DNA from: Desulfuromonas sp.
GTDB taxonomy: Bacteria > Desulfobacterota > Desulfuromonadia > Desulfuromonadales > Geothermobacteraceae
Direction: 5' to 3'
Assembly: GCA_002868905.1 (NCBI GenBank)
Contig: PKUA01000037.1
Coordinates: forward strand, 1-35,047
Length of the DNA stretch: 35,047 bases
Position numbers and translations under genes: made by a program. Positions within the stretch are counted from its first letter, which is position 1, and each line of letters starts with the position of its first letter. The notes beneath the pieces were generated by a model. The model was not told the origin of the DNA. It did no database searches and worked only from the letters and a program-made list of their open reading frames with translations. This document shows, piece by piece, positions 2,270-23,368 of this stretch.

Positions 2270-3232
2270 ATGTTCCCCGTCAATCTGCACAACCTGACGA
2301 CCGAAGAGCTGAACGAGATCGCCGACAAGGTGAAAGAAGCGTTCTTCGCCACCCTGAACCGCATGCAGATCGACAACGACCTGGAGCAGGACCTCGCTCG
2401 CATTTACCTGCCGCTGGCCGCGACCTTGCGGAGCGCCAGGCAGGAGCACCGGGGACCCCTGCTGGTCGGGATCAACGGCGCCCAGGGTTCCGGCAAATCG
2501 ACTCTCTGTCAGCTTCTCCAGTTGACACTTGATATTGGTTTCGGCCAGCGGTGCGCCGCTCTCTCCATCGACGACATCTACCTCACCCGGGCCGAACGGC
2601 AGGAACTGGCGAAATCGGTTCATCCGCTGTTCGCCACGCGCGGGGTCCCCGGAACCCACGACATCGACCTTGGCTCTGAACTGATCAACGGGCTTCGGCA
2701 GCTCAAGGAAGGGGCCGTGATGCCAGTACCGGTCTTCGACAAGGCGATCGACGACCGCCTCCCCGAAATGAAATGGCGCCCGGTCGCCGGCCCACTCGAT
2801 ATCATCCTGTTCGAAGGGTGGTGCGTCGGTGCCATTGCTCAGCCGGAAAAGGAATTGGCCCTCCCGGTCAACGACCTCGAACGGGACGAAGACCGGGACC
2901 ATACATGGCGCCGCCACGTCAACCGGCAGCTTCAGGGCCCCTACAGGGAGCTGTTCTCGGAACTCGACCTGCTGCTGATGTTGAAAATACCGGGCATGGA
3001 GAGCGTCGCAAAATGGCGTGGTCTGCAGGAGAAAATGCTCGCAGCGACGGCTCAGTCGGGCTCACACCGGATCATGGATACCGCAACGCTGCGACGATTT
3101 ATCATGCACTATGAGCGTCTGACCCGTTTCATGCTGGACGAGATGCCATCCCGCGCTGACATCGTATTGGAGTTGAACAACGATCACCGTGTCGCGGCAG
3201 TTCGAGCCAACCCCGCCGGGGGAAACCAATGA
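2270..3232 (+). CDS. P-loop glycerate kinase (plant-type D-glycerate 3-kinase family)
   Basis: A 320-residue protein with a Walker A motif GINGAQGSGKST (residues 67-78, Lys76) and the segment LSIDDIYLTRAERQELA typical of the phosphoribulokinase/uridine-kinase-like glycerate kinases (plant GLYK, bacterial YggC-like). Further family features are HPLFATRGVPGTHDIDLG and the FEGWCVG motif. The predicted reaction is ATP + D-glycerate to 3-phosphoglycerate in the cytosol. It is the first gene of a four-gene operon and overlaps the next gene by 4 bases (ATGA). In this context its likely job is to rephosphorylate glycerate released when glucosylglycerate is broken down, returning the acceptor substrate of GpgS. 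The family fit is good; the exact product (2- or 3-phosphoglycerate) cannot be settled from sequence. Confidence 0.85.
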   Translation: MFPVNLHNLTTEELNEIADKVKEAFFATLNRMQIDNDLEQDLARIYLPLAATLRSARQEHRGPLLVGINGAQGSGKSTLCQLLQLTLDIGFGQRCAALSIDDIYLTRAERQELAKSVHPLFATRGVPGTHDIDLGSELINGLRQLKEGAVMPVPVFDKAIDDRLPEMKWRPVAGPLDIILFEGWCVGAIAQPEKELALPVNDLERDEDRDHTWRRHVNRQLQGPYRELFSELDLLLMLKIPGMESVAKWRGLQEKMLAATAQSGSHRIMDTATLRRFIMHYERLTRFMLDEMPSRADIVLELNNDHRVAAVRANPAGGNQ

Positions 3233-4065
3233 TCGACCTGCTGGTTTTTACCGATCTCGACGGAACCCTGCTCGACCACCACAGCTACTCGTGGGAGCCG
3301 GCCCGTCCGACTCTGGAGCGCTTGCGAAGGGGTGGAGCTCCCGTCATTATCAACTCGAGTAAAACGGCGGCCGAGATCGAACATCTGCGGAAGGATCTCG
3401 GCAATCGACACCCGTTTATCACCGAGAACGGCAGCGCCATCTGCATCCCGACGGGATATTTCGAGACGTCAGCCCAACCGGGCGACCTCGCGACGGATGC
3501 GTATGAGATCCAGTCCTTCGGGCCGAACCGAAGCGACCTGCTCGACCTGCTTCACGATTTGCGGAATGAAGCGGGCTTTCACTTTCGCGGCTTCGCCGAC
3601 ATGGAACCGGCTGAAGTGGCCGACCTGACCGGCCTGAGCATGGAGGGCGCAAACCTCGCCCGGCAGAGGCTCGCATCGGAGCCGATCGTCTGGGAGGGGA
3701 GCGATGAAGCCCTGCAGCAGTTCCGACATAAACTCGAGAGTGCCAACCTGAGACTGCTCAAGGGAGGGCGCTTCTTCCACGTCATGGGACCGGTCGACAA
3801 GGCCGAAGCGCTGCTCTGGCTGACACGGCAATACCGCGCCACCTGGTCGCAGCGGGGCTGGATGACCGTCGCCCTTGGCGACAGCCCGAACGACCGGGCC
3901 ATGCTGGAAGTCGCCGAGATCGCCGTCGTCATCCCGGCGGCCAGCGGGCATCCCCTCGATCTGTCACGAAAAAAGAACCTCTATCTCCCCGAAGAACCGG
4001 GGCCACGCGGCTGGCAGGATGCCATGAACCGCATTCTGGACCGAGAGTCCGCCAAAGGAGCCTGA
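3229..4065 (+). CDS. gpgP: Glucosyl-/mannosyl-3-phosphoglycerate phosphatase (HAD superfamily)
   Basis: A 278-residue HAD phosphatase of the MPGP/YedP family. Motif I is TDLDGTLLD with nucleophile Asp9 and acid/base Asp11. Motif II is INSSK (Ser43-Ser44), the conserved Lys is in VDKAEA (Lys191), and motif IV is GDSPND (217-222). The C2-type cap lies between about residues 85 and 185. Family members remove the phosphate from mannosyl- or glucosyl-3-phosphoglycerate to give the free compatible solute. The start codon overlaps the stop of the glycerate kinase (ATGA), implying translational coupling, and gpgS starts two bases after this stop. Because the partner synthase is GpgS-like, the substrate is most likely glucosyl-3-phosphoglycerate. 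Confidence 0.88.
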   Translation: MIDLLVFTDLDGTLLDHHSYSWEPARPTLERLRRGGAPVIINSSKTAAEIEHLRKDLGNRHPFITENGSAICIPTGYFETSAQPGDLATDAYEIQSFGPNRSDLLDLLHDLRNEAGFHFRGFADMEPAEVADLTGLSMEGANLARQRLASEPIVWEGSDEALQQFRHKLESANLRLLKGGRFFHVMGPVDKAEALLWLTRQYRATWSQRGWMTVALGDSPNDRAMLEVAEIAVVIPAASGHPLDLSRKKNLYLPEEPGPRGWQDAMNRILDRESAKGA

Positions 4066-4067
4066 CC

Positions 4068-5297
4068 ATGGGAAACTTCTACCAGAACGGTGTCATCACC
4101 ACCCTGCACAACCTGACCCGACGCCCCCTGAAAGAATTGGAAGACGAACTGGTCCGCTTCGCCAAACGGAGACCGATGTCGCTGGTCCTCCCCTCCCTGT
4201 TCTCTGAACTGGAAGGCCCGGCCCTCGGACCGATTCTCGATGAACTGACCAAGGTTCCGTATCTCGGCGAAATCGTCATCGGCCTCGACCGGGCGGACAA
4301 AGAGCAGTTTAAGTATGCCTGCGAGTATTTCGGCCGGTTGCCGCAACACCACCGAATCCTCTGGAACGACGGCCCCCGGCTCCGCGCCATCGACCAGATG
4401 CTTGCCGACAAGGGGTTGGCGCCGACGGAAATGGGAAAGGGACGTAACGTCTGGTACTGCTATGGCTATATCCTCGCCTCCGGGCGCGCCAAGGCGATCG
4501 CCCTGCATGACTGCGACATCGTCACCTACACCCGCGAACTGCTCGCCCGCCTGATCTACCCGGTCGCCAACCCGAACTTCAACTACCAGTTCTGCAAAGG
4601 CTACTACTCGCGTATCGCCGATGGGAAACTGAACGGGCGCGCCTGCCGCCTGTTGGTGACGCCCCTGCTGAAGTCGTTGCAGAAGATGTGCGGCTACAAC
4701 GAGTACCTCGAGTTCATGGACAGCTTCCGCTATGCCCTGGCCGGTGAATTCTCGATGCGGGTCGACGTGCTGAACGACCTGCGTATTCCGAGCGACTGGG
4801 GGCTCGAGATCGGCGTCATCTCCGAAATGTACCGCAACTACGCCACCAACCGGATTTGCCAGGTCGACATCGCCGACACCTATGACCACAAGCACCAGGA
4901 CCTCTCGGCCGACAATCCGCAGGGGGGCCTGTCACGCATGAGCACCGACATTATCAAGGCAGTGGTGCGGAAACTGGCAACCCAGGGACATGTCTTCTCC
5001 CCGGAACAATTCCGGACGCTCAAGGCGACCTACTACCGCTCCGCCCTCGACTTCATCGAGGCCTACTACAACGACGCCCTGATCAACGGCCTGACCCTCG
5101 ATCGTCACAAGGAGGAGAAGGCGGTGGAGCTGTTCGCAGAGAACATAATGCGCGCCGGGGAGGTCTTCCTTTCCAATCCGATGGAGACCCCGTTCATGCC
5201 GAGCTGGAACCGGGTGGTCAGCGCCATTCCCGACATCTTCGACCACATCTACGAGGCGGTCGAAGCGGACAACCGTGAAGTGCTGGGCAAGGGCTGA
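4068..5297 (+). CDS. gpgS: Glucosyl-3-phosphoglycerate synthase (GT81)
   Basis: A 409-residue retaining glycosyltransferase of the GpgS family, close in size to the roughly 400-residue archaeal and Persephonella-type enzymes. The GT-A metal-binding DXD equivalent is Asp148-Cys149-Asp150 in ALHDCDIV. Other family segments are VIGLDRADKEQ, GKGRNVWYCYGY and DWGLEIGVISEMYRN (acceptor/metal loop). The reaction is NDP-glucose + 3-phosphoglycerate to glucosyl-3-phosphoglycerate, in the cytosol. The gene is tightly packed between gpgP and the GH13 phosphorylase, so synthesis and dephosphorylation are co-expressed. Glucosylglycerate is known as a compatible solute made under salt stress or nitrogen limitation. 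The nucleotide-sugar donor cannot be read from sequence. Confidence 0.92.
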   Translation: MGNFYQNGVITTLHNLTRRPLKELEDELVRFAKRRPMSLVLPSLFSELEGPALGPILDELTKVPYLGEIVIGLDRADKEQFKYACEYFGRLPQHHRILWNDGPRLRAIDQMLADKGLAPTEMGKGRNVWYCYGYILASGRAKAIALHDCDIVTYTRELLARLIYPVANPNFNYQFCKGYYSRIADGKLNGRACRLLVTPLLKSLQKMCGYNEYLEFMDSFRYALAGEFSMRVDVLNDLRIPSDWGLEIGVISEMYRNYATNRICQVDIADTYDHKHQDLSADNPQGGLSRMSTDIIKAVVRKLATQGHVFSPEQFRTLKATYYRSALDFIEAYYNDALINGLTLDRHKEEKAVELFAENIMRAGEVFLSNPMETPFMPSWNRVVSAIPDIFDHIYEAVEADNREVLGKG

Positions 5298-5305
5298 ACC
5301 GTCCG

Positions 5306-7048
5306 ATGAAAAGCCAACGGATCAGTGACTTCATCGACACCGCCGGACCGCGCCTCGAAAGGCTCTACGGACCGAACCAGGCCCCGCTCGTCCAGGACGA
5401 AATCATCTCCCTGCTGCAGAATCACTCCGCACAACAGGAGGGCGAACGTCACGAACGATGGGATCAAAACGATGTGATTTTGATTACCTACGGCGACAGT
5501 CTCCGCAGCCCCGATGCGTCGCCGCTGCAGACCCTGGGGCGGTTTCTCGACCATCACCTGCGGGGCCTGGTCAGCACCGTGCACATATTGCCGTTCTTCC
5601 CGTTCAGCTCCGACGACGGCTTCTCCGTGATCGACTATACCAAGGTCAACCCGGACCTCGGCGACTGGGACGATATTGACGGTATCCGGAAAAATTTCGA
5701 CCTGATGATCGACCTGGTGATCAACCATGTCTCGCGCGAAAGCCTCTGGTTCATCGATTTTCTCAACAACCGACCGCCGGCCTGCTATTACTTTATCGAA
5801 ATGGACCCGCAGGTTGATCTGAGTGACGTGGTCCGCCCACGCAAGAGCAAGGTCCTGACGCCGGTCCATACCCATCGCGGTCTGAAGCATGTCTGGTCGA
5901 CCTTCAGCGAAGACCAGATCGACCTTAACTTCGCCAATCCGAGCGTCCTGCTCGAGTTCGTCCGCATCCTGCTGCTCTATCTCCGCCACGGCGGGCGCTT
6001 CATCCGGCTTGACGCAATCGCCTATCTCTGGAAGAAGCTCGGCACCACCTGCATCAACCTCTCCCAGACCCACGACGTGGTCAAGCTGCTGCGTGACATC
6101 CTCGACACCGCCGCGCCGGACGCCATCCTGCTGACCGAGACCAACCTGCCGCATGACCAGAACCTGAGCTATTTCGGCGAATGCGACGAGGCCCACATGG
6201 TCTACCAATTCAGCCTGTCGCCGCTGCTGCTGCACGCCCTGCATCGCGGCTCAAGCCGCTACCTCAATCAATGGGCATCGAGCCGTTGCCAGGCGCCGCC
6301 GGGCTGCACCTTCCTCAACTTCACCGCCTCCCACGATGGTGTCGGTCTCCGCCCGGCCGAAGGGTTGATCCCGCAAACCGAGCTGGACGCACTGCTCGAA
6401 TCGATGCACAGCTTCGGCGGTTTCGTCAGCATGAAAAGCAACCCGGACGGCAGCGACAGCCCGTACGAGGTCAATATTTCCTACTTCGACGCCCTGCAGG
6501 GCACCTGCAACGGTCGCGACCAGTGGCAAATTCCACGGTTCCTCACCTCCCAGGCGATCATGCTCGCCTTCAAGGGGATTCCGGCCCTTTACATCCAGAG
6601 CCTGCTCGGCTCGCCCAACGATCTTGCCGGCGTGGAAAGAACCGGTCGCACGCGCTCCATCAACCGTCGCAAATGGGACCTCGGCGAATTGACCGCCCTG
6701 CTGCAGAATCGTTTCACCCCCAACAGTTCGGTCTTTCACGAACTGAAACGACTGCTGGCGATCCGCCGCTGCGAGGCCTCCTTCCACCCGGACGCCGATC
6801 AGGCTGTCCTGAATGTCGGGGACGAATTTTTCGGCATCCGCCGCATTCCGCAAGAAGGCGGCCACGGGTTGCTTTCGATCAGTAACTTGACCGAATGGCC
6901 GCAGCACCTCTGCCTGAAAGCCTTGACCGGACTCGACTTGGAAGATTTTTCTTTTGATTTGATAACCGGACGTTCGATCAACATCGAACATGAGGCGACG
7001 ATCCTTCAGCCCTACCAGACCACCTGGTTGACCTCAGAAAGAGAATGA
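5306..7048 (+). CDS. GH13_18 sucrose-phosphorylase-like enzyme, probable glucosylglycerate phosphorylase
   Basis: A 580-residue alpha-amylase-fold enzyme of the sucrose phosphorylase subfamily. The catalytic triad is visible: nucleophile Asp236 (FIRLDAIAYLWK), acid/base Glu278 (LLTETNLP) and transition-state stabiliser Asp344 (ASHDGVGLRP). The conserved region DLVINHVSRES lies near residue 140, and there is no signal peptide. Subfamily members cleave sucrose, sucrose 6-phosphate or glucosylglycerate with phosphate; glucosylglycerate phosphorylases are described in Meiothermus and as E. coli YcjM. Eight bases separate it from gpgS, so it belongs to this operon. That context favours glucosylglycerate + phosphate to glucose 1-phosphate + glycerate, with glycerate taken by the kinase at the head of the operon. 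Sucrose phosphorylase activity remains an alternative. Confidence 0.85.
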   Translation: MKSQRISDFIDTAGPRLERLYGPNQAPLVQDEIISLLQNHSAQQEGERHERWDQNDVILITYGDSLRSPDASPLQTLGRFLDHHLRGLVSTVHILPFFPFSSDDGFSVIDYTKVNPDLGDWDDIDGIRKNFDLMIDLVINHVSRESLWFIDFLNNRPPACYYFIEMDPQVDLSDVVRPRKSKVLTPVHTHRGLKHVWSTFSEDQIDLNFANPSVLLEFVRILLLYLRHGGRFIRLDAIAYLWKKLGTTCINLSQTHDVVKLLRDILDTAAPDAILLTETNLPHDQNLSYFGECDEAHMVYQFSLSPLLLHALHRGSSRYLNQWASSRCQAPPGCTFLNFTASHDGVGLRPAEGLIPQTELDALLESMHSFGGFVSMKSNPDGSDSPYEVNISYFDALQGTCNGRDQWQIPRFLTSQAIMLAFKGIPALYIQSLLGSPNDLAGVERTGRTRSINRRKWDLGELTALLQNRFTPNSSVFHELKRLLAIRRCEASFHPDADQAVLNVGDEFFGIRRIPQEGGHGLLSISNLTEWPQHLCLKALTGLDLEDFSFDLITGRSINIEHEATILQPYQTTWLTSERE

Positions 7049-7911: not shown

Positions 7912-8595
7912 CTAGCGGTTCTGCGGTAAAGGGCAGGCCTGAATACCGCCATGGCGGATAATGTCCCCGTCGACCTGATAGACGACATCCTCGGCAATAT
8001 TGGTCGCCAGGTCCCCCATCCGTTCGAGATAACGGGAGATGGAGAGAAAATAGATCAGCCCGTCGAGGTGAGAGGCATCCTTCCTGATCGCCTCCTTGAC
8101 GCGGGAAAAGTTCGACCGGTGCATATCATCGACATGATCGTCGAACTCAATCGTCTTTCGCGCCAGCTCCGCATCCTTCTCCACCAGGGAATCGAGGCTC
8201 ATCTTCAGCATCCGCTCGACCAATTCCGCCATCCCGGCAATGTCGTACGGACAGTCGATGGTCTCGACCTTGGTCAGGTCGAGTGCCCTTTCGGCGATAT
8301 TGACAGCGAAATCCGCGACCCGTTCCAGGTCGTTGTTGATCTTCAGCACCGAAACGATAAAACGGAGGTCGGTCGCCACCGGTTGATGCAGTGCCAGCAC
8401 CTTGAGGCATTCCTCTTCCAGTTCGATCTCCATGTTGTCGACCTGGTAATCGCCGGTCTTGACCCGGGTTGCCAGGTCGAGATCACCGGTCAACAATGCC
8501 TGAACCGCCTGTTTGACCCGCCCCTCCACTTCGGCCCCAAGGGCCAGCAGCCTCTTTTTCAGAGTATTCAGCTCCTGCTCCATCAAAACTGCCAT
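7912..8595 (-). CDS. phoU: Phosphate signalling protein PhoU
   Basis: A 227-residue all-helical protein with the two tandem three-helix PhoU repeats and the expected length. Recognisable segments are ELEEECLKVLALHQPVATDLR and the second-repeat metal-site acidic cluster around FDDHVDDMHR, each about 100 residues apart. PhoU links the PstSCAB transporter to the PhoR kinase, keeping PhoR in phosphatase mode when phosphate is plentiful. The ATG at 8595 has AAGGA 8 bases before it. It is the last gene of the cluster, 36 bases after pstB, and is followed by a strong terminator. Confidence 0.95.
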   Translation of the reverse strand: MAVLMEQELNTLKKRLLALGAEVEGRVKQAVQALLTGDLDLATRVKTGDYQVDNMEIELEEECLKVLALHQPVATDLRFIVSVLKINNDLERVADFAVNIAERALDLTKVETIDCPYDIAGMAELVERMLKMSLDSLVEKDAELARKTIEFDDHVDDMHRSNFSRVKEAIRKDASHLDGLIYFLSISRYLERMGDLATNIAEDVVYQVDGDIIRHGGIQACPLPQNR

Positions 8596-8631
8596 GTCTT
8601 ATGTCCTTTCCCCTGCCCGCCCCTGCGGACA

Positions 8632-9405
8632 TCAGCCGAAACGGCCGGTAATATAATCCTCGGTCTGCTTGTTCTGCGGCTTGACGAACAACTGCTCGGT
8701 GACACCGAATTCGATCAGGTTCCCCTCGAACAGGAACGCCGTCAAGTCGGAGACCCGCGCCGCCTGCTGCATGTTATGGGTGACGATGATGATCGTAAAA
8801 TTTTCGCGCAGCTCTCCGATCAGCTCCTCGACCCGCGCCGTCGACTTCGGGTCGAGGGCGCTGCACGGTTCATCCATCAGGATCACTTTCGGGTTGACGG
8901 CGATGGCCCGGGCGATGCATAGCCGCTGCATCTGCCCCCCCGAAAGTCCCAGGGCGCTTTCGTTGAGACGGTCTTTGACCTCGTCCCAGAGCGCCGCCCC
9001 CTTCAGACTGGTTTCAACCCGTTCATCAAACAAAGCCTTGTCATTCTCGCCGGCGATGCGCAGGCCGTAGATCACGTTCTCGTAGATCGACTTAGGGAAG
9101 GGATTCGACTTCTGGAACACCATCCCGACCTTGCGCCGCAACTCGATGATGTCGGTATTCCTGTCATAGATATTCTCACCGTCAAGTAGCACCTGACCTT
9201 CGACCCGGCTGCCGTCGACCAGGTCGTTCATCCGGTTGAAGCAGCGGAGCAGGGTCGATTTTCCGCAACCGGACGGGCCGATCAGGGCCGTGACCCGCTT
9301 CTCGGGAAACTTCAGGTCGATGCCGTGCAGGGCTCGCGATTCGCCGTAAAAAAACCGCAGGTCTTCAACCTCGATGACCGGGTTTTCAATCTTCAAAGTC
9401 GTCAT
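8632..9405 (-). CDS. pstB: Phosphate ABC transporter ATP-binding protein PstB
   Basis: A 257-residue ABC ATPase. Walker A is GPSGCGKST (residues 43-51). The signature is [15 protein letters not shown], Walker B is [16 protein letters not shown], and the switch His is in IIIVTHNM. The PstB hallmark [11 protein letters not shown] and the phrase [19 protein letters not shown] are present. It energises phosphate import through PstC/PstA at the inner membrane. It lies 21 bases after pstA and 36 before phoU, inside the conserved operon. Only a distant GGAG precedes the start, so translation may depend on coupling to pstA. Confidence 0.97.
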
Positions 9406-9426
9406 GTTACAGGCTTGCTCCTCAAG

Positions 9427-11043
9427 CTAAAAGGTTCCGAAAGTGTAGCGTTTTTTCATCTTGTTGCGCAAACGGATCGCCACGCTGCTCATCAGCAAAA
9501 CGATCAGTACCAGCAGCAAGGTGGTGACAAAAACCATCGGCTTGGCTGCTTCGACATTGGGGGATTGGAACCCGATATCGTAGATATGGAAGCCGAGGTG
9601 CATGAATTTGCGGTCGAGGTGCACGAACGGGAAGTTGCCGTCGATCGGCAATGCCGGGGCGAGCTTGACCACCCCGGTGATCATCAGCGGGGCGACTTCG
9701 CCGGCTGCACGTGCCATGGCCAGGATCAGGCCGGTCATAATGCCTGGGGAGGCCATCGGCAGCAGCACCCGGTAAAGGGTCTGAAACTTGGTCGCCCCCA
9801 GGGCGTAGGAACCTTCGCGCATCTCGCGCGGGATGGCACCGAGCGCCTCCTCGGTCGAGACGATGACGACCGGCACGGTCAGCAGCGCCAGGGTCAGGCT
9901 GGCCCAGAGCAGGCCGCCGGTACCGAAGGTCGGAGTCGGCAGCCTCTCGGGGAAAAACAGGGCATCGATGCTGTGGCCGATGCCGTAGACGAAGAAGCCG
10001 AGACCGAAAATCCCGTAGACGATAGAGGGGATCCCTGCGAGATTATTGACGGCGATCCGGACTATTCGGACCAGGGGGCCCTCCTTGGCGTATTCACGTA
10101 GGTAGATGGCGGCAATGACCCCGAACGGGAACGAAAACAGGCTCATAACGAAGATCAGCATTACGGTGCCGAAGATCGCCGGGAAAAGCCCCCCTTCCGT
10201 ATTCGACTCTCGTGGTTCACCGGCGACCAGTTCGACCAGTTTCCCCCCGTAGAATATGACCTTGTCAGTGGTGGACATGGTGTTCGGCGTGTAGGCCTGC
10301 ACGATGTCGAGCAGCACGACCTCCTTTCCCCGGCCACCCGCGTCGGCGAAAACCGCTTTCGCCTTGCGCGCATCGTCGACACGCCTAGTCTGAAGTTCGA
10401 TCAAGTCGGCAAAGCGCGCATCGAGCTCCGACTTCCTTTGCTCAAGCTCTTGACGTTCCAGCGCCCCGGCCGGCACCCCTTCGTAGTCGAACTTCAACAG
10501 CGTCAGACGCATCTGCTCCATCTCATAGCTGGCATCGTTCAGCTTCTTCTCGAGTTCGGAGAGGAGCTCCAGGTCGTGCTTGGCTGCGGAGAGTTGTTGC
10601 TGCAGGTTGTCGAAGGTGGCCGCAACCGAATTGCCGGCGACGGTGAACAACTGTTGGAGTGTGCCGTAAAAGTCGCCGTGTTCGCTCCGCTCCAGGACAA
10701 TGAGATCCCGGGGATGACCGGTTGAGGCGATATCGGTCTGGTCGATCCAACGAAAATCGAGCCCGTAGAGATCGCGATTGGCGATCTTGTACTGGTGTCG
10801 CAGCCCTGACCCATCAGCGGTCTCCTCGCTACGGACAAACTGGCCGTAAACTGCAGTTCCGTCGGTAAGCTTGACCTGCTCGATATTCGACGGCCAGAAA
10901 ACACCGAGACCGTTCATGACAATGACAACCAGCAGGGTCACCGCGCTGAGCAAGGTCAGGGTCAGGGCGGCACCCGACAACCAGACCATCGGTTCACCGA
11001 CCCGCCAGTATTTGTTCATTTCTTTGCTTGGACGCTTGGACAT
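9427..11043 (-). CDS. pstA: Phosphate ABC transporter permease PstA, enlarged form
   Basis: A 538-residue permease, far longer than E. coli PstA (about 296). After TM1 (about residues 20-45) comes a periplasmic region of roughly 210 residues. It contains an N-terminal beta-rich part and a heptad-rich helical stretch (LQQQLSAAKHDLELLSELEKK, split as LQQQLSAAKHD and LELLSELEKK; then ERQELEQRKSELDARFADL) likely to form a coiled-coil hairpin. The canonical permease core follows, with the EAA-type loop (EALGAIPREMREGSYALGATK). The start at 11043 is chosen because it lies just after the pstC stop (four bases); the longer frame from 11109 would overlap pstC by about 60 bases. Enlarged PstA/PstC pairs are known in Pseudomonas-type Pst systems. 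Confidence 0.93.
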   Translation of the reverse strand: MSKRPSKEMNKYWRVGEPMVWLSGAALTLTLLSAVTLLVVIVMNGLGVFWPSNIEQVKLTDGTAVYGQFVRSEETADGSGLRHQYKIANRDLYGLDFRWIDQTDIASTGHPRDLIVLERSEHGDFYGTLQQLFTVAGNSVAATFDNLQQQLSAAKHDLELLSELEKKLNDASYEMEQMRLTLLKFDYEGVPAGALERQELEQRKSELDARFADLIELQTRRVDDARKAKAVFADAGGRGKEVVLLDIVQAYTPNTMSTTDKVIFYGGKLVELVAGEPRESNTEGGLFPAIFGTVMLIFVMSLFSFPFGVIAAIYLREYAKEGPLVRIVRIAVNNLAGIPSIVYGIFGLGFFVYGIGHSIDALFFPERLPTPTFGTGGLLWASLTLALLTVPVVIVSTEEALGAIPREMREGSYALGATKFQTLYRVLLPMASPGIMTGLILAMARAAGEVAPLMITGVVKLAPALPIDGNFPFVHLDRKFMHLGFHIYDIGFQSPNVEAAKPMVFVTTLLLVLIVLLMSSVAIRLRNKMKKRYTFGTF

Positions 11044-11047
11044 GGGC

Positions 11048-13264
11048 TTAGAACCTACCGTACTTGGCGCGCAGTCGCTGACGAACGATCTCGGCAACGG
11101 TGTTGACAATAAAGGTCATGACAAACAGGATGACCGCCGAAAGAAACAGGGTCCGGTAGAGGGAACCGTCGACCGGAGCCTCGGGAATCTCGACGGCGAT
11201 ATTGGCTGACAACGGACGCATTCCGTTGAAAATGCTCAAATCCATGATCGCCGTGTTCCCGGTCGCCATCAGCACAATCATCGTCTCACCGACTGCCCGG
11301 CCGAAACCAATCATGGTTCCGGCGAAAATTCCCGGTGAAGCGGAGGGGAGGATGACCCGCCAGACCGTCTGCCAACGGCTCGCCCCGAGGGCGAGAGAGG
11401 CGGCCTTGAGGCTCGAAGGGACGTTGGAGAGGGAGTCCTCGGCGATAGTGAAGACAATCGGAATCACCGCAAACCCCATGGCAAATGCGATGATTATGCA
11501 ATTGCGCGGATCGTAACGGGTCCCCATTTCGGTAAAGAGCCACTGTTTGAGATCCCCGGCAAAGAATGTCTGCTCGAGGCCGGGGCCGAGACCGGCGGCA
11601 ATCGCCATCGCCAGAATGACCACCGGTGCCACGGCAAGAAACTCGAACCCGCGTTCCAGCCTCCTGAGGGGCTCTATTTTCCGCGCCCCCTGCCACGCCA
11701 GGATGCTGATCATCAGGGCGGCCGGAACCAGGACCAGGCTTAAAAAAAGCGAACCGAGCGAGCGTTCGATCAGGGGCGCCAGCCAGAGGGCGGCGAGAAA
11801 TCCGATGATGACCGTCGGGATCGCCGCCATGACTTCGACCGCTGGTTTGATCAGGGCCCGCAGGCGCGGCCGGGCGAACTGGCTGGTATAAATGGCACCG
11901 AAAATAGCGAGGGGAACTGCCAGCAACATGGCGTAAAAGGTCCCTTTGAGGGTTCCGAAAATCAACGGAGTCAGGCTCAGCTTCGGCTCATAGTCGTCGG
12001 TGGCCGCCGACGATTGCCAGGCGTAGACCGGCTCGTCGTACCCCTCGTACCAGACCTTGCCGAACAAGGTTCCGAGACTCACCTCCGGATGCGGAATTTC
12101 GAGCTTCCAGCTCTGAAGGCGTCCGTCGTCCGTCAGGCCCATAATGGCGTTACCGCGGGTGGTCATGCTGTAGAGCTGTAAGCGATCCTTCCGACCAAGA
12201 CTGAGCAGGGAACGCTCGCTGGTCATGTGATCTACCAACAACCCCTCGGAAGAGAAGCTGATGACGCTTTTATCGCGGGGGGACGGGGAGATAGCCGCGA
12301 CCGGAGCGGAGTGTCTGGACAGATCGTGAATCCGGGTCAGCTTCCACACCCCGGAGTCGTCACGCACCGGAAACCAGGTCGTCACCTGTCCGGTGCTGTC
12401 GCCGACCGCCAGGGAGACATCGCCGTAGACCAGGTTCAGCACGGTAATCTCCCGTCTGTCGGCGAAGGCCTGTATCTTTTCAAGCAGTGTTGGTTCCTCG
12501 CTGTCCGACAGATCCCAGCGCAGCAGCTCGCCCTGCTTCGTCCCGGCGTAAAGCCTGGTTCCGTCGCTGCTCAGCACCAACGCAGAGACATCACCGGCGG
12601 TATCGAATGCCAGTTGATGTTCAGCTTCGGTGACTTCCTCCTCGCCGAGGAAATTTTCCGACACCTCGATCAGTTGAACCAGCAACCTGTTGTCCGAATA
12701 GAGGTCGATGCGCACCTGTCTGCCCTCGCCCCCGACCCGGGCCAGAGTCTGCACACCGGGACCGGTGGCTGGCACCGGGAAGGAAGCCAATGACTCGACC
12801 CGGTGCAAAATAGAGCGCCGGTTGTCGTTCTCCGCGTCGAAATACGGCCGGAATTTGACCTGGTCGATGGTCAGGGAGCCATCCGACCAGCGGAGGACGT
12901 GGTTCAAACGCCCGTACGTTTCAACCGCCAGCAAAGACCGGTTTCCTCCAGCGCCACTCAACAACTCCTGGTCGAGGGGCGCCCCATCCTTGACATTGAA
13001 AAACCGGATCGTTCCCGATGCGTCGATGACGTAGCCGGTTTCGAGATATTCATCCATGCCGACCGCACGAATATTTTCCACTCGGGGCATCCGGGTGCTG
13101 GCATGAAGTTCCGCATCCGGCGGAAGGAAAAGGGGCAGGGAGACCTTGGCGATCAACACCAGGATGAAGATGACGGAGAAGATGATCGCCATGCCGCCGA
13201 CCGTGATAACCCAGCGGGCGATACGATCGTTACGCTTGATCTTTTTTCGGAATGCCTGGTTCAT
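11048..13264 (-). CDS. pstC: Phosphate ABC transporter permease PstC with periplasmic beta-propeller-like domain
   Basis: A 738-residue permease, more than twice the length of E. coli PstC. After TM1 (about residues 20-45) there is a periplasmic region of some 350 residues. It has WD-like repeats ending in hydrophobic-W-[DK] motifs (TKQGELLRWDLSD, DSTGQVTTWFPV, DDGRLQSWKLE), suggesting a beta-propeller. The C-terminal part is the normal six-helix permease, with AAIPTVIIGFLAALWLAP and the EAA loop (SLKAASLALGASRWQT). The ATG at 13264 is preferred: GGGAG lies 4 bases upstream, whereas the in-frame GTG at 13306 has no ribosome binding site. It follows pstS after a strong hairpin and is four bases from pstA. 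Confidence 0.93.
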   Translation of the reverse strand: MNQAFRKKIKRNDRIARWVITVGGMAIIFSVIFILVLIAKVSLPLFLPPDAELHASTRMPRVENIRAVGMDEYLETGYVIDASGTIRFFNVKDGAPLDQELLSGAGGNRSLLAVETYGRLNHVLRWSDGSLTIDQVKFRPYFDAENDNRRSILHRVESLASFPVPATGPGVQTLARVGGEGRQVRIDLYSDNRLLVQLIEVSENFLGEEEVTEAEHQLAFDTAGDVSALVLSSDGTRLYAGTKQGELLRWDLSDSEEPTLLEKIQAFADRREITVLNLVYGDVSLAVGDSTGQVTTWFPVRDDSGVWKLTRIHDLSRHSAPVAAISPSPRDKSVISFSSEGLLVDHMTSERSLLSLGRKDRLQLYSMTTRGNAIMGLTDDGRLQSWKLEIPHPEVSLGTLFGKVWYEGYDEPVYAWQSSAATDDYEPKLSLTPLIFGTLKGTFYAMLLAVPLAIFGAIYTSQFARPRLRALIKPAVEVMAAIPTVIIGFLAALWLAPLIERSLGSLFLSLVLVPAALMISILAWQGARKIEPLRRLERGFEFLAVAPVVILAMAIAAGLGPGLEQTFFAGDLKQWLFTEMGTRYDPRNCIIIAFAMGFAVIPIVFTIAEDSLSNVPSSLKAASLALGASRWQTVWRVILPSASPGIFAGTMIGFGRAVGETMIVLMATGNTAIMDLSIFNGMRPLSANIAVEIPEAPVDGSLYRTLFLSAVILFVMTFIVNTVAEIVRQRLRAKYGRF

Positions 13265-13346
13265 AAAACTCCCGGTTGTCTCGTACTTTCTCTCAACCTC
13301 CGCCACATGCCGTCGGTATGGTGGCGAGCAGATTCTTTAAACACGC

Positions 13347-13382
13347 CAATAGGCTCTGCCCTTTCCAGGGCAGAGCCTATTG
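13347..13382 (-). terminator. Perfect 16-bp hairpin between pstS and pstC
   Basis: The 16-base arms 13347-13362 and 13367-13382 pair perfectly around the loop TTCC. On the minus strand only GTGTTTAAAG follows, not a proper T-run, so this is more likely an attenuator or 3' mRNA-protecting structure than a full terminator. It would keep pstS transcript in excess over the permease genes, as expected for a binding protein. Confidence 0.75.
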
Positions 13383-13411
13383 ACTCTATGCTGTTGTCGC
13401 AATCAGCCGGG

Positions 13412-14392
13412 TCAGTCGAGCAGCGCCAGCTGCTTCTTGGCCACCTCGGCGGTCAGCGGCAGGTAACCGTCCTTGACCACGATCTCCTGACCCTCTTTTG
13501 AGAGAACGAACTTGAGGAACTCCTCGACCAGCTTCGGTAGCGGCCGATTCGGCTCCTTGACCACGTTGATGTAGAGCAGGCGCCCGAGGGGGTATTTCCC
13601 TTGCAGGACATTCTCGTAGCTCGGCTCGTACTGCTTGTCGCCGTCCTTCTTGCCCAGAGCGATCGCTTTGACGCCGGAGGTCTTGTAACCGATACCGGAA
13701 TAGCCGATTCCGGCCTTGTCTTCGGTGACGCCGAGCACGACCGAGGCGCTCCCGGGCTGTTCCTTGACCGAATCCTTGTAATCACCCTTGAAGAGGGCGT
13801 GTTTCTTGAAGTAACCGTAGGTACCGGAAGCCGAGTTACGACCGTAGAGGCTGATCGGCTTGTTGGCCCACTCACCCTTCAACCCGAGCTGCCCCCAGGT
13901 GGTCATGTTCTGCAGGCCGCCCTTTTGGTTCTTGGAGAAGATCCCGTCAACCTGCTGCAGGGAGAGACCGTCAATCGGGTTGTCCTTGTTGATGAAAACG
14001 GCAAGGGAGTCGAGGGCGACACCGATCATGGTCGGCTTGAAACCATACTTCGCCTCGAATTTATTCACTTCCTTGTTCTTCATCTTGCGCGACATCGGAC
14101 CGAGCTGGCTGGTTCCTTCGATCAGCGCCGGAGGAGCCGTGCTCGATCCCTTCCCTTCAATCTGGACATTCACGTTCGGGTATTTTTTCCGGAAACCTTC
14201 GGCCCAGAAGGTCATCATGTTATTCAGGGTGTCGGAACCGACGCTGTTCAGGTTGCCGGCCACGCCCTGAACTTTAATGTAGTCACCCAGGTTGGCGTCG
14301 ACTTTGACCGGCTCGGCGCAAAGAGCGGTGGTGGAAAGGGTCAGGACCAGCAGGGCGAGTCCGAGGCGCGAAAGGATTGTTTGCAGTTTCAT
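13412..14392 (-). CDS. pstS: Periplasmic phosphate-binding protein PstS
   Basis: A 326-residue secreted protein. A Sec signal peptide ([19 protein letters not shown], cleavage after ALCA, about residue 25) precedes a class II periplasmic-binding fold. Phosphate-contact segments are visible: [25 protein letters not shown] with [10 protein letters not shown], and [12 protein letters not shown], which matches the RxxxSGT loop of PstS. The protein captures phosphate in the periplasm for PstCAB. It starts 110 bases after the phoR stop and has its own Pho-box-like array, so it can be transcribed independently of phoBR. Its ribosome binding site AAGGAGATG lies just before the ATG. Confidence 0.96.
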
Positions 14393-14440
14393 CTTGAGTC
14401 ATCTCCTTGTGTTGGTTGATTCGATTCGATGACCTGGAGA

Positions 14441-14480
14441 ATGAACCTGCAATGTTAAGGTTTTGTTAGCGCACAATGAG
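14441..14480 (-). promoter_or_regulatory. Pho box array upstream of pstS
   Basis: On the minus strand four 7-base units occur with an exact 11-base period: CTCATTG, CTAACAA, TTAACAT, GGTTCAT, each separated by 4 bases. The middle two (14452-14469) are the best matches to each other. The 7+4 architecture is that of E. coli Pho boxes (CTGTCAT-N4 repeats) bound by PhoB dimers. A weak -10 (TCGAAT, 14429-14424) lies 11 bases further on, as expected for PhoB-activated promoters. The site sits just past the phoR stop. Confidence 0.7.
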
Positions 14481-14502
14481 CAGTTGGTAAATCAGTTCCA
14501 CT

Positions 14503-16281
14503 TCAGGAGACCTCTCCGGTGCGATTAAATGGGAGGAGGACCGTAAAGGTACTCCCCTCCCCCGGTATGCTGGTAACTCTCACGTCGCCGCGATGGGCCT
14601 GGGCGACATGCTTGACGATTGCAAGACCGAGTCCGGTCCCCCCCAGGCTGCGGCTGCGCGCCTGATCGACCCGGTAAAACCGTTCGAACAGCCGGTCGAG
14701 ATGTTCCTGGGCGATCCCGCAGCCGAAATCCTGTACCCTGATGGCGAGCTTGTCATCGAGCTGAGCCACCTCGATCACCACGCGGCTCTGCATCTCGCTG
14801 TACTTGATGGCGTTGGTCAACAGGTTGACGATTGCCTGCTCCAGCAACGGCGGGTTAACCCGCGCCTGCAGCTGCTCGGGACAGAATATCTTCAGGTCGA
14901 TTTCATGCTCCAAGAGGAGACTCTCACAAGCATTCCTTGCACTCTCCAGGACGCTCAGCAGCCTGACACCGCGCATCTCCCACCCTTGTCCCTGTTCGAT
15001 CCGCGAGAGATCGAGCAGGTCTTCGACCAGGGCGTTGAGCCGCTCGCTCTGCTTGAAAATGATCTCCAGGAACCGGGATGAGACCGGGTTGAGCTCTTCG
15101 TCGTCAAGCAGGGTCTCCACTGCCCCGCGAATCGCCGTGATCGGTGTCTTCAGTTCGTGGGAGACATTGGCGACAAAATCGCGGCGGACCGATTCGAGCC
15201 GCCGCAACCGCGTCAGATCGTGCAGCACCACCAGTACGCCGATCCGTTCTTTGGATTTCCCGGTGAGAGGTGTCGCCTGGGCATGCAGGTAACGCTGCTG
15301 AGGCCCGTGCATGACCAGTTCCTCCTCAAGAGGCCCCTGCTGCCCCAACGCCCGGGAGACGAAACGCTGCAACTCCGACTGGCGGATCACCTCCTGCAGT
15401 GGTCGACCGGAACCGATTTTGGTCGAGACCCCGAACAGGTCGGCAGCCGCGAAGTTGAGACGGATCACCTGTTCGTCGTTATCGACCGCCACGATCCCCT
15501 CGACCATGCAGCCGAGAACGGTTTCGATTTCGCTGCGTTGTTCGACCTCCCGAGCGATTCGTTCCGACAGCTCCACTGCCATCTTGTTCATCGCCGCGGC
15601 CAATCGGCTGCTCTCCTCGGAGCCGGCTTCCTTCAACGGCACACCCAACTCACCGCGTGAGAACCGCTGAGCGCCTACGGTCATCTCTTCAAGCGGACGG
15701 CTGATACGACGCGACAGCCACCAGCAGATAGGCGCCATCAGCAGGGCGATCACCAGGCCGCCGCCAAACAGTTTCCAGTAGATGACCTGGAACGTCCGGT
15801 CGATATCGGAAAGCGGCATCGCGGTCCGTACGGTACCGATCAGCCGGCCATCGTCGTACACCGGAATAGCGACATACATCAGGGTTTGGCCAAGGGTGTT
15901 GCTGAACCGGGTCGACACCCCGGGCCGACCGGCAAATGCCTCCAGAATCTCAGGTCTCTGGCCGTGATTATCCATCTGTAGGGGATCTTCTTCGGAGTCG
16001 GCCAGAACCCGGCCATCCTTCAGCACCAGGGTAATGCGTGTCCCCGATCTCTTTCCGAGAGAATTGACCTGCCGATTCAGCCAGGAACGATTCCCCTCGT
16101 CAAACCGACCGAACAGCTGCTGCTCGACCAGTTCGGCGCGAGACTGCAGGTCACTGGTGGTCTGGCGATAATGGAACCCACGCAACTCGGTCAGAACGAA
16201 CCAGCTGACCGCCAAAATCACCAGCAGGATCAGGACCAGGTAGGTAGGGTAGAGCTGCCAGACAAGACGCCGCCGCTTCAT
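14503..16281 (-). CDS. phoR: Phosphate-regulon sensor histidine kinase PhoR
   Basis: A 592-residue membrane kinase: TM1 about 12-31, a periplasmic sensor region about 32-165 (dCache/PAS-like), TM2 about 170-190, HAMP about 190-243, PAS about 250-355, then the kinase core. The phospho-acceptor is His375 in FVANVSHELKTP. The ATPase boxes are NLLTNAIKYSE, VQDFGCGI, FERFYRVD and GGTGLGLAIV. The last eight resemble PhoR closely. E. coli PhoR lacks a large periplasmic domain, so this is the longer form seen in other bacteria. Its start overlaps the phoB stop by four bases, so the pair is translationally coupled. It should phosphorylate PhoB when PstSCAB/PhoU report phosphate shortage. Confidence 0.94.
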   Translation of the reverse strand: MKRRRLVWQLYPTYLVLILLVILAVSWFVLTELRGFHYRQTTSDLQSRAELVEQQLFGRFDEGNRSWLNRQVNSLGKRSGTRITLVLKDGRVLADSEEDPLQMDNHGQRPEILEAFAGRPGVSTRFSNTLGQTLMYVAIPVYDDGRLIGTVRTAMPLSDIDRTFQVIYWKLFGGGLVIALLMAPICWWLSRRISRPLEEMTVGAQRFSRGELGVPLKEAGSEESSRLAAAMNKMAVELSERIAREVEQRSEIETVLGCMVEGIVAVDNDEQVIRLNFAAADLFGVSTKIGSGRPLQEVIRQSELQRFVSRALGQQGPLEEELVMHGPQQRYLHAQATPLTGKSKERIGVLVVLHDLTRLRRLESVRRDFVANVSHELKTPITAIRGAVETLLDDEELNPVSSRFLEIIFKQSERLNALVEDLLDLSRIEQGQGWEMRGVRLLSVLESARNACESLLLEHEIDLKIFCPEQLQARVNPPLLEQAIVNLLTNAIKYSEMQSRVVIEVAQLDDKLAIRVQDFGCGIAQEHLDRLFERFYRVDQARSRSLGGTGLGLAIVKHVAQAHRGDVRVTSIPGEGSTFTVLLPFNRTGEVS

Positions 16282-16979
16282 GGGTCCTCCCTGAAGCGGT
16301 AACCGACGCCGCGCACAGTCTCGATATACTCTCCGCAGATTCCGAGCTTCTTCCGTAGCCCGGCAATCTGCACATCAACCGCACGGTCGGTGACGGCATA
16401 ATCCTCACCACGGACAGCATTGACAATCTGGTAGCGGGTAAAAACCCAGCCGGGCCGGCTGACCAGCGCAACCAGAACCCGGAACTCGGTGAAGGTCAGG
16501 TCGACGTTTCCTCCGGCGACCTGGACCAGGTTGCGGCCGGGATGGATACGCAGCTGGTCGACTTCGATCTCCTCGCCCCCGTTCTGTCGCTTTTCCCGGC
16601 TGCGACGTCGAAAAACCGCCTGAATCCTTGCCAGCAGCACCTTGTTGCTGAACGGCTTGGTGATGTAATCGTCGGCTCCGAGTTCCAAGCCCCGAACCAC
16701 ATCCTCTTCCTCACCTTTCGCGGTCAACATGATGATCGGCAACCCGGCTGTCGCCTCATCATCCCGTAGCCGTCGACAGATTTCGAGACCGTCGATCCCC
16801 GGGAGCATCAGGTCGAGCAGCAGCAGGTCGGGCCTTGCCATGTCGATCTTCTGCAGGCCCTCCTCCCCGCAGGTAGCACATTCGACCTTGTAGCCCACCT
16901 TGACCAGGTTGAAATGCAACAGCGCCAGAATATCTTCTTCGTCTTCCACCACCAGGATGGTCTGTTTTTCGTCAGCCAT
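16278..16979 (-). CDS. phoB: Phosphate-regulon response regulator PhoB
   Basis: A 233-residue OmpR/PhoB-type regulator. The receiver has acidic pocket Glu12-Asp13, phospho-acceptor Asp56 (LLLLDLMLPG), Thr86 and Lys108. The C-terminal winged helix includes LTFTEFRVLVALVSRPGWVFTR and the recognition-helix region TDRAVDVQIAGLRKKLG. The ATG at 16979 has a strong GAGGAG before it. A longer reading from 17129 would translate through the Pho box, so it is rejected. A Pho-box-like array upstream implies autoregulation. It heads a cluster holding its kinase and its main target operon. Confidence 0.96.
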   Translation of the reverse strand: MADEKQTILVVEDEEDILALLHFNLVKVGYKVECATCGEEGLQKIDMARPDLLLLDLMLPGIDGLEICRRLRDDEATAGLPIIMLTAKGEEEDVVRGLELGADDYITKPFSNKVLLARIQAVFRRRSREKRQNGGEEIEVDQLRIHPGRNLVQVAGGNVDLTFTEFRVLVALVSRPGWVFTRYQIVNAVRGEDYAVTDRAVDVQIAGLRKKLGICGEYIETVRGVGYRFREDP

Positions 16980-17018
16980 AAATCTCCTCATCACCCGCAG
17001 CAAACCAAGGTGGAAGGT

Positions 17019-17047
17019 TGACACGCAATTGTTAGGATTGTGTGAGC
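17019..17047 (-). promoter_or_regulatory. Pho box array upstream of phoB
   Basis: On the minus strand three 7-base units with an 11-base period: CTCACAC, CTAACAA, GTGTCAA, each separated by 4 bases. The CTAACAA unit is identical to one in the pstS array. This supports PhoB autoregulation. The array ends 40 bases before the phoB start. Confidence 0.68.
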
Positions 17048-17145
17048 GGTGCCAACACCCTGTTGCCACATAGTAAATTAAATTTACCATGCATTTTCCA
17101 TCGTGGAATGAAATGACAAATACCGGCATAAACGGAAAAACGATC

Positions 17146-20049: not shown

Positions 20050-23000
20050 TCAGGGCAGATCATTCAGGTTCTCACCTGGGAGGACTATCGTTATTCTCGT
20101 GTATTGACCCTCAACGCTATCAAGAGCAAGGTGCCCACCATGCTTTGTGATGATATCCTCCGAAATGGCCAATCCGAGCCCCGTTCCTTCCGTCTCAGGC
20201 TTGGTCGTAAAAAAGGCCTGCATGACTTTTTCCTGTCTGTCAGGCGGGATCCCCGGACCGTTATCACCGACCTCAAGGCAAACATTTGGGGTTTCCTCGT
20301 CGACATAGCCCCTGATTGTGATCAGCTTGCCTGACTGCTTGTCGGAGCCTGAGAGGGCATCGATTGCATTGGTGACAAGATTGAGCAGGACCTGTTCAAT
20401 TTCCTGCTCGTTCACCACAACCAGCGGCATGGCATCTGAGAAATCGACCTCCAGGGAAATGTTTTCGCTAAGCAGGCGCGAACCCAAAAGAACTTGAATA
20501 TTTTTCACCGGAGCGGTGAGACTACAGAGTTTCTTTTCCTGTTCCCCTTTCCGCGAATAGTGAAGTGTTCTCTTGATCAAATCCCCTATTTTCATACCTT
20601 CCCTGGTGATCCTGCGGGACATATCGATGACAAACTCCTGCCTGTCGGCACTCATTTCGATCAACTCGGAGAAGCTGATAATCGCCTGGGTCGGGTTGTT
20701 GATTTCGTGCGCTATATTCGCGGCCAGACGACCGATCGCTGCAAGCTGGGCCGATCTGAGCTGCTCGGCCAAGAGAGCTTTCTTTTCTGTCACATCGTAA
20801 AAAAAGCCGTGAATGACGTCACGGTTATGTAACTTCAGGTGGCTCGTCTTGATCTCGACATCGACAATCTTACCGGACCTGGTCACCAGCCGGGACTCCG
20901 TGACATCGTCCTCGTTCTTGTCCCCGGAATGTCCGAAGATCGCTTGCAACGCCCCTTCACTCTGTTTGAGGGGGTGCAGGACACTCTCGGATTGGCCAAC
21001 GATATCGCTCACGTCCCGCTCAACCATCTTGGCCAACTGCTGATTGCAGGCTATGATTTCACCGGTATTCGCATCTGTGACGATCGAGCCATGAGCCGCC
21101 TCCTCAAACATGACTCGATAGGCCTTTTCGCTTTCGCTCAAAGCTTGTTCCGCCCTCTTTCGCTCGCTGATGTCGACAAAGGTCACGACCGCACCGACAA
21201 TCCTGCCCTCCTGACGGATAGGATGAGACCAGAACTCGGCCTCGAAGGACTCACCGTTGGCCCTGCAGAACGTCTCCTCGTCTGAGTGAAGCATATCCCC
21301 GAAATGCAACGATCTTTTGATAATGCAATCCGCTTCCGGATACGCCTTGCTTGCAGCCGGGGTATGATGAAGAACATCGTGCATGTTTTTCCCGAGCAGA
21401 TCACTTTCAGACTTGAAACCGAGAAGGTCGATGCAACTTTCATTGCAAAACGTGCAAGCACCTGCCTCGTCGACCCCATAAATTGCCTCCGCGGCACTGT
21501 TCAGGATCATTCGGACCTTTTTTTCGCTCCGGTCCAAAGCGGACTTAGCCTCAATGCGCTCGCTAATATCATGAATAATCGAGAAAATCAGGGGCCTTTG
21601 CTCGATGTTGATTGGTGAGGAAAAGACTTCGACATCCCGAACCCGACCGTCTTTCAATCGGTGCCGGGTTTCAAATGCCATCTGCTCTCCAGCCACTATT
21701 TGTCGGCGACTTTTGCGAACCTCATCTTCCGGCACAACACTTATTTCGTCTTTTGATAGTCCCGTAAATTCATTGAGGGAATATCCGTAAAATTCACATG
21801 CAGCCTCGTTTGCATCTTTGATGACCCCGGAATCTGGGTCGAAAATGAGCATGGCGGCCCCGTGGTTTCTGAACATCTTCTGGAAGCGTTCCTCATGCTC
21901 ACGAATATGGGTAATATCAACAAAGTAGCCGTACAGTTTTTTGGGCCCATCTGCGCCCATTTCGACCGTAACGAGGTCATGAACCCAGATTGTCCGACCA
22001 TCTTTATGGATTCCGCGGTAGAGAAAAGCATGGTCACGGCCTTTTGTCGCCTCGACAGTACAATATTCAGAAGCCCAGGTCTTATCGTCAGGATGCACCT
22101 TCGCAACCCAGCTCTGCATGTCGGTCCACTCTTCGATGTCGTAGCCGAACAGATCGACAATCTGCGGACCAACATAAGTGAATCTTTCCGTCGCAAGATC
22201 GAGTTCCCAGGGCACGGCCCGGGCATTTTCCGCCAGAGCCCGGAATCGTGCTTCCCTAATTTCGATCTCCCTGGTGCGCCGAGCCACCTGGCGCTTCAGT
22301 TCATAACTGATCCCGATCAGCAATCCAACCGCAAGCAGAACGGAGCCAAAAGCAATGAGAACCCACTGCGGTATCACTTCGCGATGAGTGCCGGTTCCCA
22401 TCCAGTGGGAAACGCGCTCATAATAGATCGAGTTCTCTTCTTCTTTCCATTTAGACAGTTGCCTGTCGATCAGGGTGAGGATTTCGGCGTTTGTTCCTTT
22501 TTTGACAGCGAAAAAGACCGAAAACGGTTCGAATTCTATCGTCGTCGAAACCAGCCCGTATTTTTCCGCTTCGCGAAAACCGAAATGCTGAGGCACGACG
22601 CCTGCCACAACTTCCCCGGCTTTGATTTCTTCAAAAATCTCGTAGTGGGACTCGACTTCTAAAATCCGCGGGTGGACATCAAACCTCTCTGCCGTCCTAA
22701 CAAAATTTATGCCGTTGATATCTTTGCGGGCAACCGCAACCCGGCGGTGATGCAGACCCCTGATGTCGGATATCCCAGCGCCTGGCAACGTGTACACTTT
22801 CCCCCATATGTCTGCGACCGCTTCTTTGTTGTAATCGAATATTTCTAAACGTTCGGGGGAAAAAGCCACCGTGGTTAAAAGATCAATCTCTCCCTTCATC
22901 AACCGGTCGAAACACTCTCCCCAGCTGCCGGGAACGAAGACCAGGCTCAGACCGTCACTTTTGGCCATTTCCCGAAGCAAATCAGTGTTAAGTCCTTGGG

Positions 23001-23142: not shown

Positions 23143-23334
23143 AAATACCCTTGCCAAAGGAAGGAAAACACAACAATGGGAGAAGCAGACCGGATCGGAC
23201 TACAACTATAATAAATTACAACACAAATCAAAGTAGTTTAAAATTAATATACACAACAATGAACATCATTGATTTTCCTTACGTCTAAGAATCCACTACC
23301 GACCGACCTGAAGCCACCGATCCATACAGAAACA

Positions 23335-23368
23335 ACAAGGGCCTACCCGAAACCGGATAAGCCCTTGT
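23335..23368 (-). terminator. Terminator of the tRNA-Ala gene
   Basis: On the minus strand ACAAGGGC (23368-23361) pairs with GCCCTTGT (23342-23335), with an inner stem TATCCG/CGGGTA, followed by TGTTTC. It lies 7 bases after the CCA end of the tRNA. Confidence 0.75.

Follow-up and report, generated by a model that had tools for sequence, protein, structure and literature searches.

A predicted glucosylglycerate make-and-recycle cassette in Desulfuromonas, with candidate sigma-54 elements ahead of the cassettes of some relatives

Introduction

Glucosylglycerate (GG) accumulates under salt and nitrogen starvation (PMC11009771; PMC9062515) and is made under nitrogen limitation (PMC9062515, PMC5924519), according to the accessible parts of these papers. 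The accessible part of a 2020 review (PMC7178133) reports that the genes of GG phosphorylases (GGaP) often occur together with those for glycerate kinase, for the glucosyl-3-phosphoglycerate synthase GpgS or for the matching phosphatase GpgP. The same source gives two marks of these phosphorylases: a (T/S)ETN motif at the tip of strand beta-5, and Glu, not Gln, in loop A. Here we analyze a four-gene locus of Desulfuromonas sp. (assembly GCA_002868905.1, contig PKUA01000037.1). The window, by which we mean the whole stretch of DNA analyzed, is the entire 35,047-base contig; the genome is 3.3 Mb in 84 contigs. An earlier note on this DNA had described a GG cycle encoded in one operon. Since the literature already links GGaP to glycerate kinase, GpgS and GpgP genes, that main observation is a known association and is not new. 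Judging from protein sequences, and for the kinase also from a predicted structure, we give a probability of about 0.9 that the locus is a GG make-and-recycle cassette of the kind already described. What is new here is a hint, from promoter-like sequences, that some relatives may turn the GG synthesis genes on when nitrogen is short.

Results

Four genes on one strand

Four complete open reading frames (ORFs), all on the + strand, occupy positions 2270–7048, in the place and on the strand reported earlier. They were said to overlap or nearly abut, and they do: the kinase and phosphatase genes overlap by 4 bases, and gaps of 2 bases (phosphatase to synthase) and 8 bases (synthase to phosphorylase) follow. 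Such spacing suggests that the four genes can share one transcript. The functions first proposed for them are likewise supported by protein families, by identity to YcjM, by GGaP signatures and by the fold of the kinase.

The phosphorylase (GH13_18 family, 5306–7048, + strand, 580 aa) aligns over its full length with E. coli YcjM, an annotated glucosylglycerate phosphorylase (42% identity, 240/577 columns, E = 7e-165). It carries TETN at residues 277–280 (6134–6145, + strand), the signature of the rule in PMC7178133. Glu 388 (6467–6469, + strand), within SPYE, aligns with the IYQ of 7qqj and replaces the loop-A Gln of sucrose phosphorylases. We found TETN in 78 of 82 extracted phosphorylase proteins, the window's included, and three of the four exceptions were cut short in extraction. 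The string PYE occurred in 74 of the 82; as five of the eight exceptions are near full length, the loop-A string is variable. Could the enzyme instead be a phosphorylase of sucrose or another glucoside that lies beside GpgS incidentally? Its best NCBIfam model does bear the name of sucrose phosphorylase (TIGR03852, sucrose_gtfA), but the score of 210.3 bits falls below the equivalog cut-off of 334.4. This, together with TETN, the loop-A Glu, the identity to YcjM and the fact that GGaP relatives adjoin GpgS in 77 of 80 loci, makes such a reading highly implausible, and the protein is best read as a predicted glucosylglycerate phosphorylase. Separately, the phosphorylase gene of the relative G013 (locus L010, about 9466–11202) has one TAA in the matched stretch and came out short in extraction; it may be broken, or this may be a sequencing error.

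The phosphatase (HAD-IIB, 3229–4065, + strand, 278 aa) scores 243.8 bits against TIGR01486, above the cut-off of 164.75 for the MPGP/GpgP subfamily, and matches the solved structures 1xvi (E = 2.7e-46) and the MPGP 3ztw (E = 3.5e-27). By sequence it is a clear member of the MPGP family and a predicted glucosyl-3-phosphoglycerate phosphatase. The synthase (4068–5297, + strand, 409 aa) has NF040724 (GpgS_Meth) as its best match (368 bits, E = 5.4e-110), and its D148-C149-D150 motif is invariant among six sequences compared. We term it GpgS-like, by homology and context.

Several points weigh against these assignments. The phosphatase models carry the name of mannosyl-3-phosphoglycerate. The 368 bits of the synthase lie under the NF040724 equivalog cut-off of 700, a model that, to guess from its name, covers one branch. 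The synthase profile reaches one solved structure only, and weakly (E = 1.1e-4), and on structural grounds mannose could stand in place of glucose.

Constraint on GpgS is much stronger than on its operon neighbours: its nonsynonymous divergence (dN) is 0.043 to G013 and 0.054 to a second relative, G032, versus 0.17–0.30 and 0.18–0.38, respectively, for the neighbours. GpgS is 85–93% identical in five relatives that belong to Desulfuromonadales but to other families.

The kinase (2270–3232, + strand, 320 aa) was named by no Pfam family above cut-off. Its profile finds D-glycerate 3-kinases as the best solved relatives (6ckg, E = 2.2e-37; 7xpc, E = 1.8e-33). In a Foldseek search with its AlphaFold model (pLDDT 94), the glycerate kinase (GLYK) 7xpc ranked first (TMq 0.77, E = 1.5e-19); pantothenate kinases entered the list from rank 5 on (E = 4.7e-13). 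Profile and predicted fold thus point to a GLYK-like P-loop kinase, a putative D-glycerate 3-kinase. Neither of the other glycerate kinase families, PF13660 and PF02595, was found in the genome (0/1 each; positive in 4/14 and 5/14 control genomes). Both results agree with the earlier proposal that freed glycerate is re-phosphorylated. Kinases of the GLYK type make 3-phosphoglycerate, which is the acceptor of GpgS. Because the product is this very acceptor, the loop would close at 3-phosphoglycerate.

Taken together, these assignments suggest the following cycle. GpgS would join nucleoside diphosphate glucose (NDP-glucose) to 3-phosphoglycerate, and GpgP would strip the phosphate from the product to leave GG. 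GGaP would then cleave GG with phosphate, yielding glucose 1-phosphate and D-glycerate, and the kinase would return D-glycerate to 3-phosphoglycerate. The cassette may so serve as a rechargeable store of solute and carbon. Recovering GG by phosphorolysis takes one ATP, and it spares the ATP that would be lost if GG were hydrolysed. The price of a full turn is about 3 ATP equivalents: the ATP of recovery plus the nucleoside triphosphate that remakes NDP-glucose with loss of pyrophosphate. The low ATP cost named in the earlier note therefore holds for recovery alone and not for the full turn. Given this price, the cell has reason to separate making from recycling, and the two would have to be kept apart somehow.

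Distribution and arrangement of the cassette

We picked named loci by GpgS, as the best 80 of at least 548 matches; the set leans to close relatives and about half of it is Marinobacter. The order kinase-GpgP-GpgS-GGaP on one strand, which the earlier note had suggested looking for in related genomes, was present in 38 of the 80 (in L079, two genes appear as split matches). GGaP lay on the GpgS strand in 61 loci, was convergent in 16 and had no match within the stretch in 3. In 40 further gammaproteobacterial loci, the corresponding numbers were 16 on the same strand, 15 convergent (one nearly duplicates a locus in the set of 80) and 9 with no match.

Of the named cassette records, the two closest to the window come from Desulfuromonadales assemblies. 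Among 56 genomes including its own, close matches to the window's phosphorylase, the own copy aside, were limited to G013 and G032 (75%), G047 (65%) and G034, where the gene is split between two contigs (69% and 53%). A close GpgS is present in each of these four and also, truncated at a contig end, in G054, which gave no phosphorylase match. GpgS is patchy in the order (17 of 136 Desulfuromonadales genomes, the window's own counted) and was found in none of four same-family genomes searched, one of which is 84% complete.

We built a quick GGaP tree of 85 rows, YcjM among them, with SH-aLRT supports (L017 and L018 were left out). A four-row clade, entirely same-strand, holds the window (support 100). 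A branch of equal support separates these four, the full set of 22 opposite-strand rows and YcjM from the other 58 same-strand rows. The tree requires a minimum of two changes of arrangement, and one is compatible with its well-supported branches; the YcjM branch is very long. Thus, the window's one-strand order and that of Marinobacter probably, though not certainly, arose separately.

Candidate sigma-54-type and NtrC-like elements ahead of the cassettes of relatives

We scored upstream regions against the sigma-54 −24/−12 consensus and the NtrC consensus, both as we take them to be. The set held 97 sequences (the window and 96 loci); removal of 5 with fewer than 120 upstream bases and 2 of another arrangement left 90. 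It contained two near-copy pairs (L017/L160 and L018/L013), all four too short for this count of 90. First cassette genes were located by similarity, so a promoter before an undetected gene would be missed. The pattern TGGYAY-N5-YTGCW occurred in 48 of the 90 regions and in none of the 90 antisense; 50 dinucleotide shuffles gave a mean of 0.18 and a maximum of 1. The core TGGYAYN6TGCW occurred in 57 (antisense 2; 0–1 in each of 20 shuffle rounds), and in 10 of 905 regions upstream of other ORFs at the same loci. These control ORFs were defined mechanically as ATG ORFs of at least 200 aa, whether or not they are genuine genes, and one upstream region may serve two divergent neighbours. The 57 core elements comprise 35 distinct versions: their spacers vary, while GG and GC are fixed by the pattern.

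The core element was unevenly distributed. It was found in 33 of 40 Marinobacter regions, 16 of 18 of a Thalassolituus-type group, 5 of 13 from Desulfuromonadales and 3 of 19 from other Gammaproteobacteria. The Thalassolituus-type group was defined after the sites were seen, with L024, L030 and L052 unplaced by title. NtrC-like sites (at least 13/17 matches) were present in 16 of these 18 (shuffle mean 0.3; 22 of 177 control upstream regions). The two sets of 16 are not the same: the sigma-54 set omits L024 and L052, and the NtrC-like set omits L029 and L031. Such sites also occurred in 13 of the 59 remaining Gammaproteobacteria, mostly Marinobacter (shuffle mean 0.8, maximum 2). In Desulfuromonadales they were found in 1 of 13 regions, not above shuffles (mean 0.25, maximum 2). 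NtrC itself was above cut-off in all six gammaproteobacterial genomes tested. At 14 loci that we inspected, 12 of them Thalassolituus-type, the divergent neighbour was something other than a nitrogen gene in 9, where we take it to be pheA.

Before GGaP genes on the opposite strand the sigma-54 pattern was almost missing, with 1 of 23 cases (L013 and L018 both counted; L012 excluded as a coordinate artefact with a 12.9-kb "upstream"). None of 64 same-strand GGaP genes had it (L017 and L160 both counted, their upstream being mostly GpgS coding sequence). L017 and L018 were retained in these counts and in the 96-locus search for neighbours described below.

With the pattern fixed beforehand, we turned to a held-out set of 40 of 50 matching gammaproteobacterial genomes. 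It omits G136 (the genome of L019), G179, G295 and G414 (match near a contig end), the weaker G484 and G326, and four genomes with E values of 8e-6 or worse. The pattern occurred in only 2 of 39 non-duplicate held-out loci; a looser sigma-54 score picked out 7 of the 39, versus 0–3 in shuffles. We therefore rejected general sigma-54 control of the cassette: the element is lineage-specific and no rule of the cassette. Another candidate, the dyad CATGG-N9-CCATG (present in 8 of 46 representatives and in at most 2 after shuffling), was left uncounted. In the Marinobacter sequences it seems to lie within the coding start of a divergent gene, presumably SelO, and is probably coding conservation.

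Because a sigma-54-type element precedes their cassettes, transcriptional control is likely in Marinobacter, in the Thalassolituus-type group and in some Desulfuromonadales relatives. This bears on the earlier argument that genes sharing a transcript must be controlled through their enzymes, on which the operon would be constitutive and flux direction set solely by the concentrations of phosphate, GG and glycerate. The window itself lends that view something: all four genes can share a transcript, the phosphorylase reaction is reversible according to the accessible part of PMC11009771, and the window's own sigma-54-like element is not significant alone (see below). Across loci the argument fails: 16 of the 80 loci and 15 of the 40 have GGaP convergent to GpgS, and in several lineages the cassette follows a sigma-54-type element. 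We consider control by enzymes alone improbable, at roughly one chance in four.

We lean, by a modest degree, toward a different reading, in which GG synthesis belongs, in several marine lineages, to the regulon for nitrogen limitation. Kinase-GpgP-GpgS would be driven by a sigma-54 promoter, accompanied by NtrC sites in the Thalassolituus-type group, and the phosphorylase would stand outside or have been added later downstream. In the window's clade the promoter would have decayed, and the phosphorylase would probably have joined separately from its joining in Marinobacter.

The upstream region of the window

A degenerate sigma-54-like −24/−12 element, TTGGCATGATTCCTGTT, lies ahead of the kinase gene (2227–2243, + strand), followed by the AAGGAG ribosome-binding site of that gene (2257–2262, + strand). 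The −24 GG is present and GT replaces GC at −12; 91 of 400 shuffles reached its score. The scores of G013, G054 and G032 were reached by 15, 57 and 395 of 400 shuffles, respectively. The element is 15/17 identical to that of G013 and equally distant from the start. Because the coding start is equally similar, relatedness alone could explain this likeness. Further upstream is a weak, possible NtrC-like dyad, TGCACACTTTTTAGGCA (2162–2178, + strand), matching 12/17 positions of the consensus that we assumed.

Does a sigma-54 RNA polymerase drive the operon of the window's lineage through this weak element, as a response to nitrogen limitation? The stretch TTGGCAYGATTC-N-TGTT, common to the window and G013, is among the most conserved upstream, and G054 has a similar element. 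The genome has rpoN and an ntrC above cut-off, and intact elements are found in the 5 of 13 Desulfuromonadales regions. However, GT takes the place of the −12 GC in the window, G013 and G054 alike, with the shuffle counts given above, and G032, of the same GGaP clade, is without the element. The NtrC-like site is at 12/17, and the NtrC sites of Desulfuromonadales do not rise above shuffles. Nitrogen-responsive sigma-54 control of this operon is thus possible yet doubtful, at somewhat under one chance in three.

Neighbouring genes

Beyond the operon lies a phosphate regulon (PhoU, a PstB-like ATPase, two permeases, a PstS-like protein, a sensor kinase and a response regulator; 7912–17129, − strand), which we place outside the system. 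The earlier note had pointed to it as a large regulon next door and as a link to phosphate. The adjacency is real, but the regulon runs convergent to the operon. Control of the cycle by this neighbour through inorganic phosphate would fit the adjacency and the role of phosphate as GGaP substrate. Against it stand the convergent orientation, a terminator-like site on the phoU side, and the lack of any PhoU match at the 96 other cassette loci, whose flanks mostly span a few kb. Six loci had an ABC ATPase 27–33% identical to PstB and one a response regulator 37% identical to PhoB, which we took as generic; in G032, cassette and phoU are on separate contigs. With a convergent neighbour and no PhoU beside other cassettes, we rejected phosphate control as very unlikely.

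Upstream of the operon, a LysR-type regulator (1233–2126, + strand) stands head to head with an MFS transporter gene (3–1184, − strand, cut by the contig end), 48 bases apart. It probably belongs to this divergent MFS gene and not to the operon. We thought it an unlikely operon regulator given this arrangement and a match near only 1 of the 96 loci, at 28%. A 55%-identical LysR in G008 had no MFS match nearby.

Between the operon and phoU is a gene for a small protein with two CW domains (NF045718; 7276–7614, − strand), seen at none of the 96 other cassette loci. Farther on are two large sensor kinases (20050–25903, − strand), of which the 1035-aa one combines a solute-binding domain with several PAS domains.

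Discussion

The lead worth keeping is lineage-specific sigma-54 control, in one group with NtrC, of GG synthesis. In the accessible parts of five papers (PMC3870243, PMC9062515, PMC4685198, PMC5924519, PMC3662644), we found no sigma-54, rpoN or NtrC promoter linked to GG; subscription literature was mostly outside the scope of this search. If true, a sigma-54/NtrC promoter ahead of the GG synthesis genes in culturable Marinobacter and Thalassolituus would make the link between nitrogen and GG directly testable. It would also correct the notion that a shared transcript means a cycle controlled by enzymes alone. In dark-tolerant cells of Prochlorococcus, the transcripts of GG synthesis and recycling changed oppositely, as stated in the accessible part of a 2024 paper (PMC11631117). 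This weighs against equating one operon with one expression level.

How does the locus compare with known systems? With the glucosylglycerate phosphorylases (EC 2.4.1.352) of Franceus and co-workers, as covered in the accessible part of PMC7178133, it has in common the signatures and full-length homology to YcjM. The glycerate kinase, GpgS and GpgP neighbours are likewise common to it and to the neighbourhoods described there. Nothing is categorically different: the window is a Desulfuromonadales-type member with its four genes on one strand. E. coli differs more. Its YcjM is 42% identical to the window's phosphorylase, but none of the annotations in an 18-kb stretch around ycjM names GpgS, GpgP or a glycerate kinase; this stretch instead holds transporter, dehydrogenase and kojibiose phosphorylase genes. 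The Prochlorococcus operon, in the accessible part of PMC11631117, resembles the window in uniting synthesis and recycling genes and, unlike it, is accompanied by a putative transporter gene. The cassettes of Marinobacter and of the Thalassolituus type have the same gene set as the window, although some Marinobacter loci gave no kinase match. Most of them carry an intact sigma-54-type element, unlike the window, and those of the Thalassolituus type differ further in their convergent phosphorylase and their NtrC-like sites.

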